Assembly (NCBI RefSeq): GCF_040537815.1
Contig: NZ_JBEWSZ010000002.1
Coordinates: 620,001 to 684,000 of the forward strand
Reading direction: 5' to 3'
Length of the DNA: 64,000 bases
From: Mesorhizobium shangrilense
Lineage (GTDB): Bacteria > Pseudomonadota > Alphaproteobacteria > Rhizobiales > Rhizobiaceae
A program made the position numbers and the translations under genes. Of this stretch, positions 13,962 to 55,345 are shown one piece after another. Every line of letters begins with the position of its first letter. The first letter of the stretch is position 1. The notes beneath the pieces are model-generated. The model was not told where the DNA came from. It saw only the letters and a list, made by a program, of their open reading frames with translations, and did not search any database.

Positions 13962-14354
13962 ATGAAGAAGGAAGTCATCGAAGTGCCGGTGCTGTCGGCG
14001 GCCGTGCGCGCGCTGGGCGTGCCGTTGTCGCTGGTGACGAAGGCCGCCGGGCTGGTCTTCGTGTCCGGCACGCCGCCGCTCGATATCGTGACCGGCAGGC
14101 TGGTCAAGGGCGACATCGAAACCCAGACCGAGGCGTCGCTGAAGGCGATGAAGCACTGCCTGGAAGCGGCGGGCACTTCGCTGGACAATGTCGTGATGGT
14201 ACGCGTCTACGCTGTCAATTCCGGCTTCTACAACGCCATCAACCGCGTCTATGCCCGGCATTTTCCCGAAAATCCGCCGTCCCGGACCTTCGTGCCGGTG
14301 GCGTCGTGGCCGATGGAGTTCGATATCGAGATCGAGTGCGTGGCGGTGGGTTGA
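13962..14354 (+). CDS. RidA/YjgF-family protein, copy 1
   Basis: A 130-residue RidA-fold protein (trimeric YjgF/YER057c/UK114 superfamily). The conserved VFVSGTPPLDIVTG and LEAAGTSLDNVVMVRVY are clear. In true RidA imine deaminases the C-terminal motif VARLP carries the catalytic arginine; here it reads VASWP, so that arginine is replaced by serine. It is therefore likely one of the other Rid subfamilies with an unknown ligand. A GGAGG Shine-Dalgarno precedes the ATG. It shares about 80 percent identity with copy 2 downstream. Confidence 0.87.
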   Translation: MKKEVIEVPVLSAAVRALGVPLSLVTKAAGLVFVSGTPPLDIVTGRLVKGDIETQTEASLKAMKHCLEAAGTSLDNVVMVRVYAVNSGFYNAINRVYARHFPENPPSRTFVPVASWPMEFDIEIECVAVG

Positions 14355-14530: not shown

Positions 14531-14590
14531 ACCTGCTCCGACATTGATATGATGAGCTGCAACGCCGACGGCCGCTTCCTTCACAAGGGT
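14531..14590 (+). pseudogene. Remnant of the cupin gene 3' end
   Basis: In one frame these bases read TCSDIDMMSCNADGRFLHKG, matching the C-terminus of the cupin at 13.3-13.7 kb (SCSDIDMMSPSSDGRFLHKD). The noncoding bases after it (about 14618-14652, GCGCTGGCGTTCGGC and ATAAGCT) also match the bases after the intact cupin gene. It has no cupin core and no start of its own, so it is the left edge of a duplicated cupin/RidA-like unit. Confidence 0.7.
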
Positions 14591-14672
14591 GAGCGGCTGG
14601 CTGGACCATGCGTCAGCGCTGGCGTTCGGCCGGTGGCGCTATAAGCTCCCTGAAACCCAAGGGAGTCTTGCC

Positions 14673-15065
14673 ATGAAAAAAGAAGTCATCGAGGTGCCGG
14701 TGATGTCGGCCAAGGTGCGGGCGCTCGGCCTGCCGTGTTCGACAGCGGTGAAGGCCAACGGCTTCGTGTTCATCTCGGCGACGCCGCCGGTGGACATGGT
14801 GACCGGCGAGATGGTGCGCGGCGACATCGAGGTTCAGACCGAGGCGTCGCTGAAGGCGCTGAAGCACTGCCTGGAAGCGGCGGGCACCTCGCTGGAAAAC
14901 GTGGTGATGGTGCGCATCTACGCCGTCAATTCCGGCTTCTACAACGCCATCAACAGGGTTTATGCGCGGTACTTCAGCGTGAATCCGCCAGCGCGGAGCT
15001 TTGTACCGGTGGCGTCTTGGCCGATGGAGTTTGATATCGAGATCGAGTGCGTGGCGGTGGCGTGA
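14673..15065 (+). CDS. RidA/YjgF-family protein, copy 2
   Basis: A 130-residue paralogue of the gene at 13962, about 80 percent identical; the last 70 residues are nearly the same. It keeps the same VASWP in place of the arginine-bearing VARLP of RidA deaminases. Most differences lie in residues 11-54, around the strand PCSTAVKANGFVFIS, so the ligand pocket may have changed. The ATG at 14673 follows GGGAG. The two copies arose from a tandem duplication that also carried the end of the cupin gene. Confidence 0.87.
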   Translation: MKKEVIEVPVMSAKVRALGLPCSTAVKANGFVFISATPPVDMVTGEMVRGDIEVQTEASLKALKHCLEAAGTSLENVVMVRIYAVNSGFYNAINRVYARYFSVNPPARSFVPVASWPMEFDIEIECVAVA

Positions 15066-15138
15066 TCTGGGCTGTACCTTTCCCCTAAAAGGACAAGGTG
15101 CCACCGAAGGCTGCGGGTGATAGGTGTCGCAAGAAATA
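15066..15138. repeat. Degenerate left half of a RIME-like element, copy E
   Basis: CCTTTCCCCTAAAAGGACAA and then GGTGCCACCGAAGGCTGCGG correspond with substitutions to the left half of copy D after the first RidA-like gene. No matching right half exists before the DUF5343 gene or before carB. From 15139 to 15307 I see only the promoter of the next gene. Confidence 0.5.
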
Positions 15139-15255
15139 AGGCCTGCCATCAAGGGCTCAGATGTGCTGTCACGAGCGTAGTGCCAGATCGGAATGCCGAT
15201 TATGCGGCTCGCAATGCTTCCGGGGATAGGAGAAGATAAATATCTTAGTGAAGGA

Positions 15256-15283
15256 TTGCATGTGATGGTCGGCAAATTATAGT
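15256..15283 (+). promoter_or_regulatory. Predicted promoter of the DUF5343-HEPN operon
   Basis: TTGCAT (15256-15261) and TATAGT (15278-15283) are separated by 16 bases, 24 bases before the ATG at 15308. A G-rich Shine-Dalgarno (GAGGGAGGG) follows. Sequence match only. Confidence 0.45.
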
Positions 15284-15307
15284 CTGCGCAGGCAGAGGGA
15301 GGGCTCA

Positions 15308-16006
15308 ATGGCAGAAAAAGAAGCGAGGTCTGGTGCAGACGCACTGGCTGGAAAAGAAGAAAAGAAATCTCAACCTAATCGAGAGATAGCAGGAAATATG
15401 CCTTACACTACGAGTGTGGGCGTTTTGAAAAGAGCCCTTCAGAAAATACCAGTCAGTGAACGACCACCAAAATTCAACAAGGATTTTCTAAATACTGTTT
15501 TTGAAATCACCGGGGGGAGTTCAATACCGGTGATACCTATCCTAAAGAGAGTCGGATTTCTGACGAGCGATGGAACGCCCACGAATTATTACTCTGAGTT
15601 TCAAACGAGTGGTGGCAAAGCGTCAGCCGCGCTTCACGCGTTGAAGACAGGTTTCGCCGAGATTTTTAAACGAAATCAATATGCTCATAAGGCCGATCGA
15701 GATAAGATCGTGGATACAATTGTCAGTATCACCGGCCTGACACGCACCGATAGAATTGTTGGATATATATACGGTACGTTCAGCGCGTTCCAAGAGTATG
15801 CGCAAGGCGCAGAAGAAGTGAAGCCTGTTCCGACGACGGGAGCGAATGGGTCCGATACAGCGACGCCTACGCAGGATCGCAGCGGAAGTCCTTTATTGAG
15901 TCTTAATGGTATTTCATATCATATTAATTTGGTGCTTCCGGCAACTACAAATATAGAAATATATAATACGATATTTAGGAGTATTAGAGAAAATTTAATC
16001 AAATGA
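15308..16006 (+). CDS. DUF5343 domain protein
   Basis: A 232-residue soluble protein. After a charged 30-residue N-terminus it has the DUF5343 start MPYTTSVGVLKRALQKIP, then PPKFNKDFLNTVF, IPVIPILKRVGFLTSDGTPT and YYSEFQ, a compact helical, possibly winged-helix-like fold. A Thr/Gly/Ser-rich linker (about 172-190) leads to a conserved tail (LSLNGISYHINLVLPATTNI and following helix). The function of DUF5343 is not known to me. Base use is clearly more AT-rich than in the neighbours, indicating transfer. The stop overlaps the HEPN gene start in ATGA, so the two are made together. It may regulate, neutralise or target the HEPN partner. Confidence 0.8.
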   Translation: MAEKEARSGADALAGKEEKKSQPNREIAGNMPYTTSVGVLKRALQKIPVSERPPKFNKDFLNTVFEITGGSSIPVIPILKRVGFLTSDGTPTNYYSEFQTSGGKASAALHALKTGFAEIFKRNQYAHKADRDKIVDTIVSITGLTRTDRIVGYIYGTFSAFQEYAQGAEEVKPVPTTGANGSDTATPTQDRSGSPLLSLNGISYHINLVLPATTNIEIYNTIFRSIRENLIK

Positions 16007-16593
16007 TCGACCTTCAGAGATTAGAGCTTTTCGTCTTAAAATGTGCCGTTATTCAGGCGGACGTGGAAAAATTTGGCCGAATCGACAATCCCATTGCGGG
16101 GTGGGACTCTTCTGTTTCTGATAGCGGATATGACGAGTATGTGTCTCAATTTTCCGAGGATAGCCGCTCAGGTGCTCGAAAAATGGCATCGTACTATGAA
16201 TTATTCTATCTAATAGAAAATGACATTCGAAGAATAATCCACGAAACTTTGGAAGAGAGCCATGGGCGATCGTGGTGGGATGTTTGTGTTGATCAAGCAG
16301 TAAAGGATGAAGTTGAGAAGAATCGTAAGAGGGAGCTCGAACTGGCTCTTTCTATCCGATCTGAGCGAGAGATAGACTATACGACTTTTGGCCAGCTTGG
16401 CGACATAATCAGAAAAAATTGGACAAATTTCGCAGGCATTATGAGCAATCAACCGGCTCTATCAAGAGTTCTGCATCAGCTTAATGTTCTACGCGGCACG
16501 ATCGCCCATTGCGGTTTTCTGGCCGAAGACGAAGTTGATCGTCTCCACCTGACAATCAAGGATTGGTTCCGCGTGATGGCGGGTCCGCGATAG
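16003..16593 (+). CDS. Swt1-type HEPN domain protein (putative ribonuclease)
   Basis: A 196-residue helical protein. The C-terminal segment RVLHQLNVLRGTIAHCGFL contains the HEPN signature R-x4-H (Arg164, His169), the catalytic pair of HEPN ribonucleases found in toxins, abortive-infection proteins and CRISPR effectors. The arrangement with DW.R at the end matches the family named Swt1-like HEPN. It likely cuts RNA when released or triggered, but this is inferred from the family. It is as AT-rich as its partner, starts in an ATGA overlap with it, and ends five bases from the end of carB, which is convergent. Confidence 0.78.
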   Translation: MIDLQRLELFVLKCAVIQADVEKFGRIDNPIAGWDSSVSDSGYDEYVSQFSEDSRSGARKMASYYELFYLIENDIRRIIHETLEESHGRSWWDVCVDQAVKDEVEKNRKRELELALSIRSEREIDYTTFGQLGDIIRKNWTNFAGIMSNQPALSRVLHQLNVLRGTIAHCGFLAEDEVDRLHLTIKDWFRVMAGPR

Positions 16594-16598
16594 CCCCC

Positions 16599-20102
<3,504 letters not shown>

Positions 20103-20245
20103 GGCGAAGTTCCGTTTGGCGGGCGGCTTGCACAAAAAACCGGGACGGGAAGACCCGGCCGGTTGTGCTCGCGATTCTGGTATCAGGCTAGGTGGGCCTT
20201 ATAGGGAAGAGTTTTGGCGGATGTAACCCCGAAAATGAGGGATTA

Positions 20246-51152: not shown

Positions 51153-53688
<2,536 letters not shown>

Positions 53689-53703
53689 GATTGGCAAGGC
53701 AGC

Positions 53704-53739
53704 CCGGCGCGGCTTCGCAAGGAGCCGCGCCGGACTATT
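53704..53739 (+). terminator. Terminator hairpin of katG
   Basis: CCGGCGCGGCT (53704-53714) and AGCCGCGCCGG (53723-53733) are perfectly inverted around eight bases, followed by ACTATTT. The stem is very stable, the T-run is weak. Confidence 0.65.
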
Positions 53740-53841
53740 TCCATCTCGACGTGAAAGTCGAGACAGGTTTTACTGCCGATAAGACTCGCAACGCTGCATA
53801 TGTAGCTGCTGCTATGAAGCACGATTGTAAGCAGCGCGATT

Positions 53842-55077
53842 CTATCGAACGCCAAGGTCGACGCCAGCCTTAACTGACAGACGTCCGGTCTGATCTTTCA
53901 GCCAGCAATCGTTCTTTTTCCGGGTGTAGGCGAATGCTTTGCACTTCCAATCCTTTTCGCATTCAAGGTAGCAGCCGATAAACGAGCTACTGCGAAGTCG
54001 CAGATAGTCCCCACCGGCCATGTCGCGGCCGGAAGCGATGGTAAACGTGGAGACCACAGTGCTTCCCAGCAAATCGGAAGCCACATTTGCGTCAGCGTCG
54101 TAGTTGCGCACCAAAAGCTTCGCGTCATTCTTCAAGAAGCAAAAGTGCTCCTTCTTGTTGTAGGTCGTTGCGCGGCAAGAAGAGTCCGCCTGACAGGCCG
54201 CGCTGCATTGCTCGCTGGAGACAGAACGAAGAGTCGAATAATCAAAGCCGATTACATCGACATTCGTCAGCGACTGAAAACCCCGAGACATTGGCGGAGA
54301 AACGGTCGTTGTCGGCGCAACGGGCGCGGTCGTTGGCGCTTGATTGGCAACCTGAGCCATGGGTTTGCCGTGACAAAGAACCGGAACGGTCGATGGGACG
54401 ACCTTGTCGGACAGATCAGCAGTGGAAAGAGGAGGCGCCCCAGTCTGTGGCACGCTACTTTCGAACTTGATATCGCGGCTCTGCAAAAACAGTTCAATGA
54501 CGTTTGACCGTATTGCAAAATTCACGTTTTGAGGGGTTATTCCCGTCGCGTCAGCGAATTTCGACCCTAAGACCGATGTTGCCATGCCAACGACGGATCC
54601 CCAGTGATCAACGATTGGACCGCCTGAGTTGCCTGGTTGTAGCGGCGTCGAAACCTGCATAAAGCGGGTATCGTTCTCCATGCCAACTAGTGAATTGATG
54701 TTGCCAGTGGTGACCTTGATTGTGTCGGAGAGAATGCCGTTAAGCGGGAAACCATAAGCCGCGATATCTTCGCCCAGTCTCGGCTGGGTACTACGAAGAG
54801 AAATCGGTTTTTTGTCCGTCGCATTGACCTGGAAAACAGCTAGGTCATTTTGTTTGTCTATTTTGATTTCCGCGGCATCACCAAGAGATGGCACGCTGAC
54901 GCTTTCGCACCCTTCGACAACATGCTGGTTGGTGACAATCCAACCTTGGTCGTTAACGAAGAAGCCTGTCCCCGAACTTATGATATCGGATGACCCTGCG
55001 GCCGCACAAAATAGGCTTGATGCAATGACTGTGGACGCCGTCAAAAAGAGGCGGAAAGACTTCTTACCCGCAATCAT
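53842..55077 (-). CDS. Exported trypsin-like serine protease with two PAN domains
   Basis: A 411-residue protein: signal peptide (about 1-27), a trypsin-like domain with the triad His52 (TNQHVVEG), Asp78 (KQNDLAVF) and Ser151 (PGNSGGPI), a Pro/Thr linker (about 210-265), and two PAN/apple modules at about 272-322 and 350-400. Each module has four cysteines with the same 4-6-12 spacing (291/295/301/313 and 369/373/379/391). PAN modules bind proteins or glycans, so the protease may be aimed at a target. HtrA would have PDZ domains instead. Codon use is less GC-rich than neighbours, which suggests transfer. Confidence 0.85.
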   Translation of the reverse strand: MIAGKKSFRLFLTASTVIASSLFCAAAGSSDIISSGTGFFVNDQGWIVTNQHVVEGCESVSVPSLGDAAEIKIDKQNDLAVFQVNATDKKPISLRSTQPRLGEDIAAYGFPLNGILSDTIKVTTGNINSLVGMENDTRFMQVSTPLQPGNSGGPIVDHWGSVVGMATSVLGSKFADATGITPQNVNFAIRSNVIELFLQSRDIKFESSVPQTGAPPLSTADLSDKVVPSTVPVLCHGKPMAQVANQAPTTAPVAPTTTVSPPMSRGFQSLTNVDVIGFDYSTLRSVSSEQCSAACQADSSCRATTYNKKEHFCFLKNDAKLLVRNYDADANVASDLLGSTVVSTFTIASGRDMAGGDYLRLRSSSFIGCYLECEKDWKCKAFAYTRKKNDCWLKDQTGRLSVKAGVDLGVR

Positions 55078-55162
55078 TACGCCACCTACCCAAGCACACC
55101 GTGGTCAATAAGCCTCAAAATCGACTAGCCAGCAAGAGATTTGGGCGCGGTGTCGCGTCTCC

Positions 55163-55345
55163 AATTGCTTCGGAGCAAATCGAATCCGAGGGATTGATGG
55201 CTCGCCGACGGCTCTTGGTGGTCTGCGCGAAGAATGTGACATTGCTTGAGACCAGCAATCTGGCGCGGCTTGACACTGGCCGCGCCGGGTGCCTTCTCCA
55301 AAAGCTTACTAATGAGGCCGCGTTTTCAGCGATGGAACGCGGCCT
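55163..55345. other. Series of four hairpins in a gene-free gap
   Basis: Inverted pairs in order: TTGCT/AGCAA (55165-55178), ATTGCT/AGCAAT (55241-55259), GGCGCGG/CCGCGCC (55262-55286), and AGGCCGCGTT/AACGCGGCCT (55315-55345). None ends in a clear T-run. The gap 55078-55436 otherwise shows no gene; the frame open across it is read-through into the GNAT gene. Confidence 0.45.

Follow-up and report, generated by a model that had tools for sequence, protein, structure and literature searches.

The 64,000-nt stretch of Mesorhizobium shangrilense DNA analysed here (the window) carries, beside carB, two small overlapping genes encoding a DUF5343 protein and a Swt1-like HEPN protein. A first-pass annotation of the letters had taken them for a candidate defence or toxin-antitoxin system. 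The locus raises the question of whether this is what they are and, if so, how the one protein might control the other.

Two overlapping genes of foreign composition

The features of the locus are as follows.
15066 to 15307, plus strand: intergenic leader 5' of the pair (GC 0.529)
15308 to 16006, plus strand: gene 1, DUF5343 protein of 232 aa (PF17278, E 3.6e-31; PADLOC PDC-M34A, 2.3e-36)
15401 to 15805, plus strand: DUF5343 core domain, residues 32-166, predicted to be helical
15905 to 16003, plus strand: conserved C-terminal tail, residues 200-232, NGISYHINLVLPATTNIEIYNTIFRSIRENLIK (seen in alignments, as a helix in the predicted model and in profile matches in other genomes)
16003 to 16593, plus strand: gene 2, Swt1-like HEPN protein of 196 aa (PF18731, E 4.7e-14; PADLOC PDC-M34B, 1.6e-38)
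16492 to 16509, plus strand: R-x4-H motif RGTIAH, Arg164 to His169, invariant in alignments
16599 to 20135, minus strand: carB, a conserved neighbour whose 3' end is an insertion hotspot (3' end matched in 38 of 41 genomes)

Both open reading frames are complete and overlap in ATGA, as the first-pass annotation had described, and its remark that the pair is more AT-rich than its flanks holds as well, GC being 0.449 in the pair against 0.638 in the 5 kb to the left and 0.662 in the 5 kb to the right. Across the window, only 1 of 628 same-size stretches is as low in GC as the pair, and every same-size stretch with a GC of 0.50 or less overlaps it. Left-flank homology to relatives stops at or before 15065, and the left edge of the cassette probably lies within 15066 to 15307. 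Upstream, at 13962 to 14354 and 14589 to 15065, are two adjoining, mutually similar genes that look RidA-like by eye. The window has a second GC dip (0.51 to 0.58) at 53401 to 55200, possibly another acquired stretch.

Judging from the overlap, the pair may form one transcription unit. The shared promoter that the annotation had assumed was not recovered, since a sigma-70-type scan of 15000 to 16700 turned up no site on the plus strand ahead of the pair; the stretch immediately 5' of the gene 1 ATG reads AGGGAGGG. An operator search 5' of the pair found only weak and distant inverted repeats, and Rfam gave nothing around the pair at the gathering score. The nearest named homologues are Mesorhizobium proteins with 78-84% identity, and neither protein of the pair has a match in NCBIfam or PHROGs.

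A tailed DUF5343 protein and a HEPN protein with an intact motif

Gene 1 had been described as a DUF5343 protein with a conserved tail, which both the PF17278 match and the alignment bear out. The DUF5343 core weakly resembles winged-helix regulators and the RNA-binding ROQ domain, and its N-terminal part is possibly winged-helix-like. A sequence search of solved structures gave one match for DUF5343, at chance level, and none for the HEPN protein. In the predicted model of DUF5343, a low-confidence linker precedes the tail, whose helix spans residues 216-230; the putative strand element of the tail is our reading of the sequence. We propose that this tail could be a HEPN-docking element.

Gene 2 matches HEPN_Swt1 with 53.1 bits (cut-off 27.5) over residues 67-191. 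The R-x4-H motif that had been reported as intact is exact; Arg164 and His169 are the same in every sequence of two alignments, one of 37 close and one of 60 diverse sequences. The motif is found in 90 of 91 HEPN ORFs; the exception among loci L009-L088 is L064, whose HEPN frame is split. The product of gene 2 is likely an RNA-cutting enzyme, the RNase effector of the pair. It seems very improbable to us that the pair instead serves the host in RNA processing or regulation, with HEPN acting as a binding domain and not as a toxin: the eukaryotic Swt1 HEPN, inferred to be an inactive binding domain in the part of PMC3710099 that deals with it, would suit such a role, but the invariance of the arginine and histidine across 60 aligned sequences, together with the sporadic distribution, foreign composition and hotspot location of the pair, argues against it.

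When 308 genomes of the class were approached from the HEPN side, PF18731 gave 13 matches over the cut-off. The stand-alone HEPN proteins of G000, G088 and G188 each adjoin a tailed DUF5343 gene. Seven matches belong to open frames 1109-1201 aa long, and two, in G339 and G245, to frames of 343-356 aa that have no tail ORF close by. The match in G302 is a broken copy. There, at 1749-2137 of locus L099, a degraded DUF5343-HEPN pair is visible, the HEPN match being interrupted by three stop codons.

Conservation and spread of the pair

Whether the pair stays together in other genomes was a check that the annotation had named beforehand, and the pair passes it. A scan of 84,980 species genomes gave 341 relatives of this DUF5343 subfamily; the best 80 of these 341 were fetched, and in 80 of 80 the DUF5343 gene is followed immediately, in the same orientation, by a HEPN ORF of the same family. 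The patterns used for the scan were made from DUF5343 words, the tail among them, and had no HEPN part, so that the HEPN count is not built in, whereas the presence of the tail partly is. By record title, these best 80 loci belong to eight phyla: Pseudomonadota, Actinomycetota, Bacteroidota, Acidobacteriota, Nitrospirota, Chloroflexota, Verrucomicrobiota and Patescibacteria. The tail pattern occurs in 79 of the 80 DUF5343 ORFs, the exception (L080) having a split frame, and in none of the 2258 other ORFs with 150 aa or more at these loci. A split reading frame in one of the two genes was seen at 3 of the 80 loci (L032, L064, L080), and a 4-base overlap is the commonest spacing (40 of 90 pairs). 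Across 77 intact pairs, DUF5343 and HEPN distances correlate with r 0.817, a value reached in none of 2000 permutations; the correlation fits co-inheritance of the partners and is no proof of contact.

Relatives were found on only three viral contigs, all three with both genes. No match was obtained by tblastn with the window DUF5343 in the plasmid and phage collections, with the L053 DUF5343 in the plasmid collection or with the L090 DUF5343 in the phage collection, nor by blastn with a Citrobacter pair in the E. coli collection. Because the plasmid and phage collections gave no match and viral contigs were only three, direct support for mobility is slight. This bears on the possibility, which we regard as improbable, that the pair is a classical type II toxin-antitoxin module that serves addiction and is not directed at phages in particular. 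Two small overlapping genes with the partner first are what such a module would look like, and a degraded copy, as in G302, would fit it too. However, DUF5343 at 232 aa is large for an antitoxin, the upstream inverted repeats are weak and distant, and the pair sits in a hotspot of defence-like genes (see below); moreover, addiction modules are common on plasmids, and two of our queries had no match in the plasmid collection.

The annotation had also called for a check of enrichment near known defence genes, and here the outcome was negative. From 47 loci, 182 near and 185 far genes were picked, near being the two nearest usable ORFs per side and far the two outermost fetched (mostly 7-10 kb away, some closer), and the first 148 of each were scanned against PADLOC at a threshold of 1e-10. 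The scan gave 48 PADLOC families near the pair (39 loci) versus 50 far from it (38 loci), hence no defence enrichment, in a test that is blunt because families were counted, not genes. The result speaks against simple guilt by association. No near-neighbour family is common to more than 2 of the 47 loci.

The tail marks a HEPN neighbour

The relation between tail and partner was followed in a sample chosen regardless of any HEPN gene, consisting of overlapping draws of 61 relatives, 385 genomes of the class and 398 of the phylum. PF17278 is patchy in these draws (8 of 61, 10 of 385 and 11 of 398) and matches in 25 genomes, whose ORFs were checked with profiles. A tail with a Swt1 HEPN next to it is found in 11 of the 25. 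Three combine the tail with an overlapping Ymh HEPN (PF09509, 9e-26 to 2e-27; Ymh also goes by the name TIGR02391), and three combine it with a DUF4145-like protein, the one scanned having an E value of 0.0027, below the Pfam cut-off; in one of these last three (G421) the DUF5343 frame is split. The DUF4145-like set does not match Swt1 HEPN in a profile comparison. One genome (G108) has no tail and has DUF5343 fused to a Ymh HEPN within one ORF, and four have neither tail nor HEPN match, G606 among them with only a 53-position partial match. Left out of the count were G302 (the degraded Swt1 pair), G690 (below the cut-off) and G046, whose fetched stretch stops 46 bp past the ORF. A HEPN-type neighbour therefore accompanies 17 of 17 tailed but 1 of 5 tail-less DUF5343 proteins, that one being the fusion (Fisher p 7e-4). 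These observations suggest that the tail marks a HEPN partner drawn from three families, Swt1, Ymh and, weakly, DUF4145, a rule that appears to be new.

Tail-less DUF5343 proteins at L005 and L096 end in another, similar segment, LPPALAGLL.SLP..G..W....RD.FV.TF.AVL.FC, without a HEPN match nearby, and possibly follow a different partner rule. Locus L098 (940-1920) holds a natural DUF5343-Ymh HEPN fusion in one ORF with no tail between the two parts, which offers a single-chain stand-in for the pair; PMC3710099 counts Ymh among the HEPN families whose motif is intact.

The tail-free fusion also bears on the direction of control. DUF5343 might be an activator, that is, a sensor of phage DNA, RNA or protein which on binding would use the tail to recruit or dimerise an otherwise silent HEPN, HEPN alone being harmless; we hold this to be rather unlikely. 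The tail could serve as an adaptor as well as a muzzle, a single-ORF fusion without the tail makes more sense if DUF5343 is part of a sensor-effector and not a labile antitoxin, and the weak similarity of the core to winged-helix regulators and the ROQ domain would suit a sensor that activates. On the other hand, the partner-first order and the ATGA coupling fit toxin-antitoxin dyads equally. Inhibition of HEPN by DUF5343 is favoured here because the partner is made first and is coupled to HEPN, as PMC3710099 argues for MNT-HEPN dyads in the section on them.

The tail outside DUF5343

A tail-only profile matched in 8 of 385 class genomes and a wider profile in 11 of 398 phylum genomes, 17 genomes in all, 13 of which are DUF5343 cases of the HEPN-blind sample. 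A HEPN-type gene lies next in 15 of the 17, two of them recognised by motif alone and three by a weak DUF4145 match. In G439 and G378 (loci L146 and L147), the tail is carried by a protein of 247-249 aa without a PF17278 match, followed directly by a 172-aa protein. Neither of the two L146 proteins matches Pfam in our scan; by precomputed label the 172-aa family is PF27235. Its RNQCAH, which has the HEPN spacing R-x4-H, is invariant in 20 aligned members, and a profile comparison of this family with Swt1 HEPN gave no significant match. The DUF5343-plus-tail profile reaches the tail proteins of both loci (E about 3e-10), a match that we read as probably due to the tail, a distant relation of the core being the alternative.

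The arrangement of tail protein and then RNQCAH protein spans 856-2127 of L146 and 235-2232 of L147, where a third gene without a Pfam match is added. In G704, another tail-profile genome, an IS-like transposase ORF lies further on from the tail. G761 was considered as a tail carrier and rejected as a chance match.

The tail may be a portable HEPN-docking module that marks out a wider class of two-gene immune systems. In these, sensors that can be swapped for one another (DUF5343 and one or more families that lack a DUF5343 match) would be coupled to equally exchangeable HEPN RNases of the Swt1, Ymh, DUF4145-like and PF27235 families, with PDC-M34 as one subtype. We put this broader idea slightly short of an even chance.

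An insertion hotspot at the 3' end of carB

From 20 genomes of the same genus, the sequence past the 3' end of carB was fetched for up to about 10 kb. In 12 of the 20, one or two genes of 40-51% GC lie within 2.6 kb of carB, starting 25-634 bp away. In 11 of the 20 the other side of the site carries a portion of the RidA-like gene (labelled by eye) that stands ahead of the pair in the window. These AT-rich ORFs number 18 in all, whereas none of 114 ORFs at least 3.2 kb away falls below 55% GC. In G003 a cupin-like gene stands about 50 bp from carB, with no RidA gene or insert between.

The inserts vary by genome. They include bSEFIR (PADLOC, 9.6e-99), a Drt6-like reverse transcriptase (2.7e-109), an OLD/AriA-like ATPase with an HSDR_N-like protein, SLFN_AlbA_2 (Schlafen-like), NACHT, an HD/dGTPase-like gene with a nucleotidyltransferase-like gene, a weak RiboL-PSP HEPN, a pentapeptide protein and several unknowns. 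At 1e-5, PADLOC gave 5 matches among the 10 scanned of the 18 insert ORFs versus at most 3 among 114 flank genes (CSD_V, PbeB), a contrast with Fisher p 0.0012 when unscanned ORFs are counted as misses. The 3' end of carB is therefore a hotspot for AT-rich one- or two-gene cassettes in the genus, and it appears not to have been described before.

Several hotspot proteins have no Pfam match (471 aa at L148, 185 aa at L152, 232 aa at L154, 438 aa at L166), and those in the L148-L167 regions are candidate new defence genes. The 185-aa protein at 9276-9833 of L152 (also 776-1333 of L117), integrase-N-like by eye and at the same site as the pair, has its own C-terminal tail, strand-helix-like, VVQIQGLPYDLTAAEASKIANVIRAMA.

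Viewed from the pair, carB lies within 10 kb at 3 of 83 fetched loci, on the same side as here in Mesorhizobium (L009) and Nitratireductor (L020) and beyond the 5' end in Methylobacterium (L018). About 0.3 would be expected if an average genome of 5 Mb is assumed (p 0.003); without L009, which is probably of the same genus, p is 0.03. Both this hotspot and the tail shared by relatives with other HEPN families had been missed in the first-pass annotation.

A proposed mechanism

From the sequence evidence above, the pair is probably an anti-virus system. We lean, at a little better than even, to a self-contained two-gene immune unit of an abortive-infection, toxin-antitoxin-like kind, in which the HEPN RNase is held by the tailed DUF5343 protein. 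The DUF5343 protein would be made first and co-translated with HEPN, and its C-terminal strand-helix tail would bind HEPN, keeping it inactive or in place. The DUF5343 core would sense an infection signal, either nucleic acid or a phage product; the freed or activated HEPN protein, an RNase effector using Arg164 and His169, would then cut RNA, and growth would stop. The pair may move as a small AT-rich cassette, which here would have entered a carB-side site that collects defence genes. As for the defence or toxin-antitoxin role from which the annotation started, the conserved unit, the intact motif, the upstream partner, the foreign composition and the defence-receiving site are in its favour, while the missing excess of defence genes among neighbours is not.

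If this is true, a tail of 30 residues predicts which protein controls which HEPN nuclease, and the tail alone could locate unknown partner proteins across bacteria. The central question, whether the partner muzzles or arms the nuclease, could then be tested by removing or exchanging a single short stretch of the protein. The reading would also hint at the role of DUF5343, which Pfam lists without a known function, and the carB-side defence hotspot of the genus could be read for further systems.

Comparison with known systems

The pair resembles the MNT-HEPN toxin-antitoxin dyads, which, as far as PMC3710099 describes them, are likewise two-gene units with the partner gene first and HEPN second. 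They differ in having a nucleotidyltransferase partner and another HEPN family, whereas the partner in the window is DUF5343, for which Pfam gave no nucleotidyltransferase family. The same HEPN family as ours occurs in Swt1-like HEPN domains fused to an AAA+ ATPase (DUF499) in restriction-modification operons, according to the part of PMC3710099 on these fusions; the window HEPN, in contrast, stands alone as a protein of 196 aa, and its partner is encoded by another gene. PD-Lambda-3 is described as abortive infection and served as an abortive-infection control in the relevant section of a 2026 paper (PMC13190303). Among related DUF5343 pairs, the Ymh-HEPN partners match PD-Lambda-3_B; the window HEPN is Swt1-like, not Ymh, and among matches at E up to 10 no PD-Lambda-3 model is listed for either window protein.

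The first-pass annotation knew of no described DUF5343-HEPN system. In the literature this stands: a full-text search, with no preprints and few subscription journals in its scope, found no paper naming DUF5343, PDC-M34 or TIGR02391. Such candidates are said to come from a preprint on new defences that Payne and others posted in 2024. As regards catalogues, the statement falls, since PADLOC-DB 2.0.0 (2023) holds both proteins as halves of the candidate PDC-M34. Each of the two window proteins is covered for most of its length by its match, gene 1 to the A model and gene 2 to the B model; the genes are adjacent, and no difference was found, the catalogue output being silent on mechanism. DUF5343 proteins partnered with Ymh or DUF4145 match the A model as well, but their partners do not match B. 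The pair itself is thus already catalogued; the rule linking tail and HEPN and the carB hotspot are what appear new.
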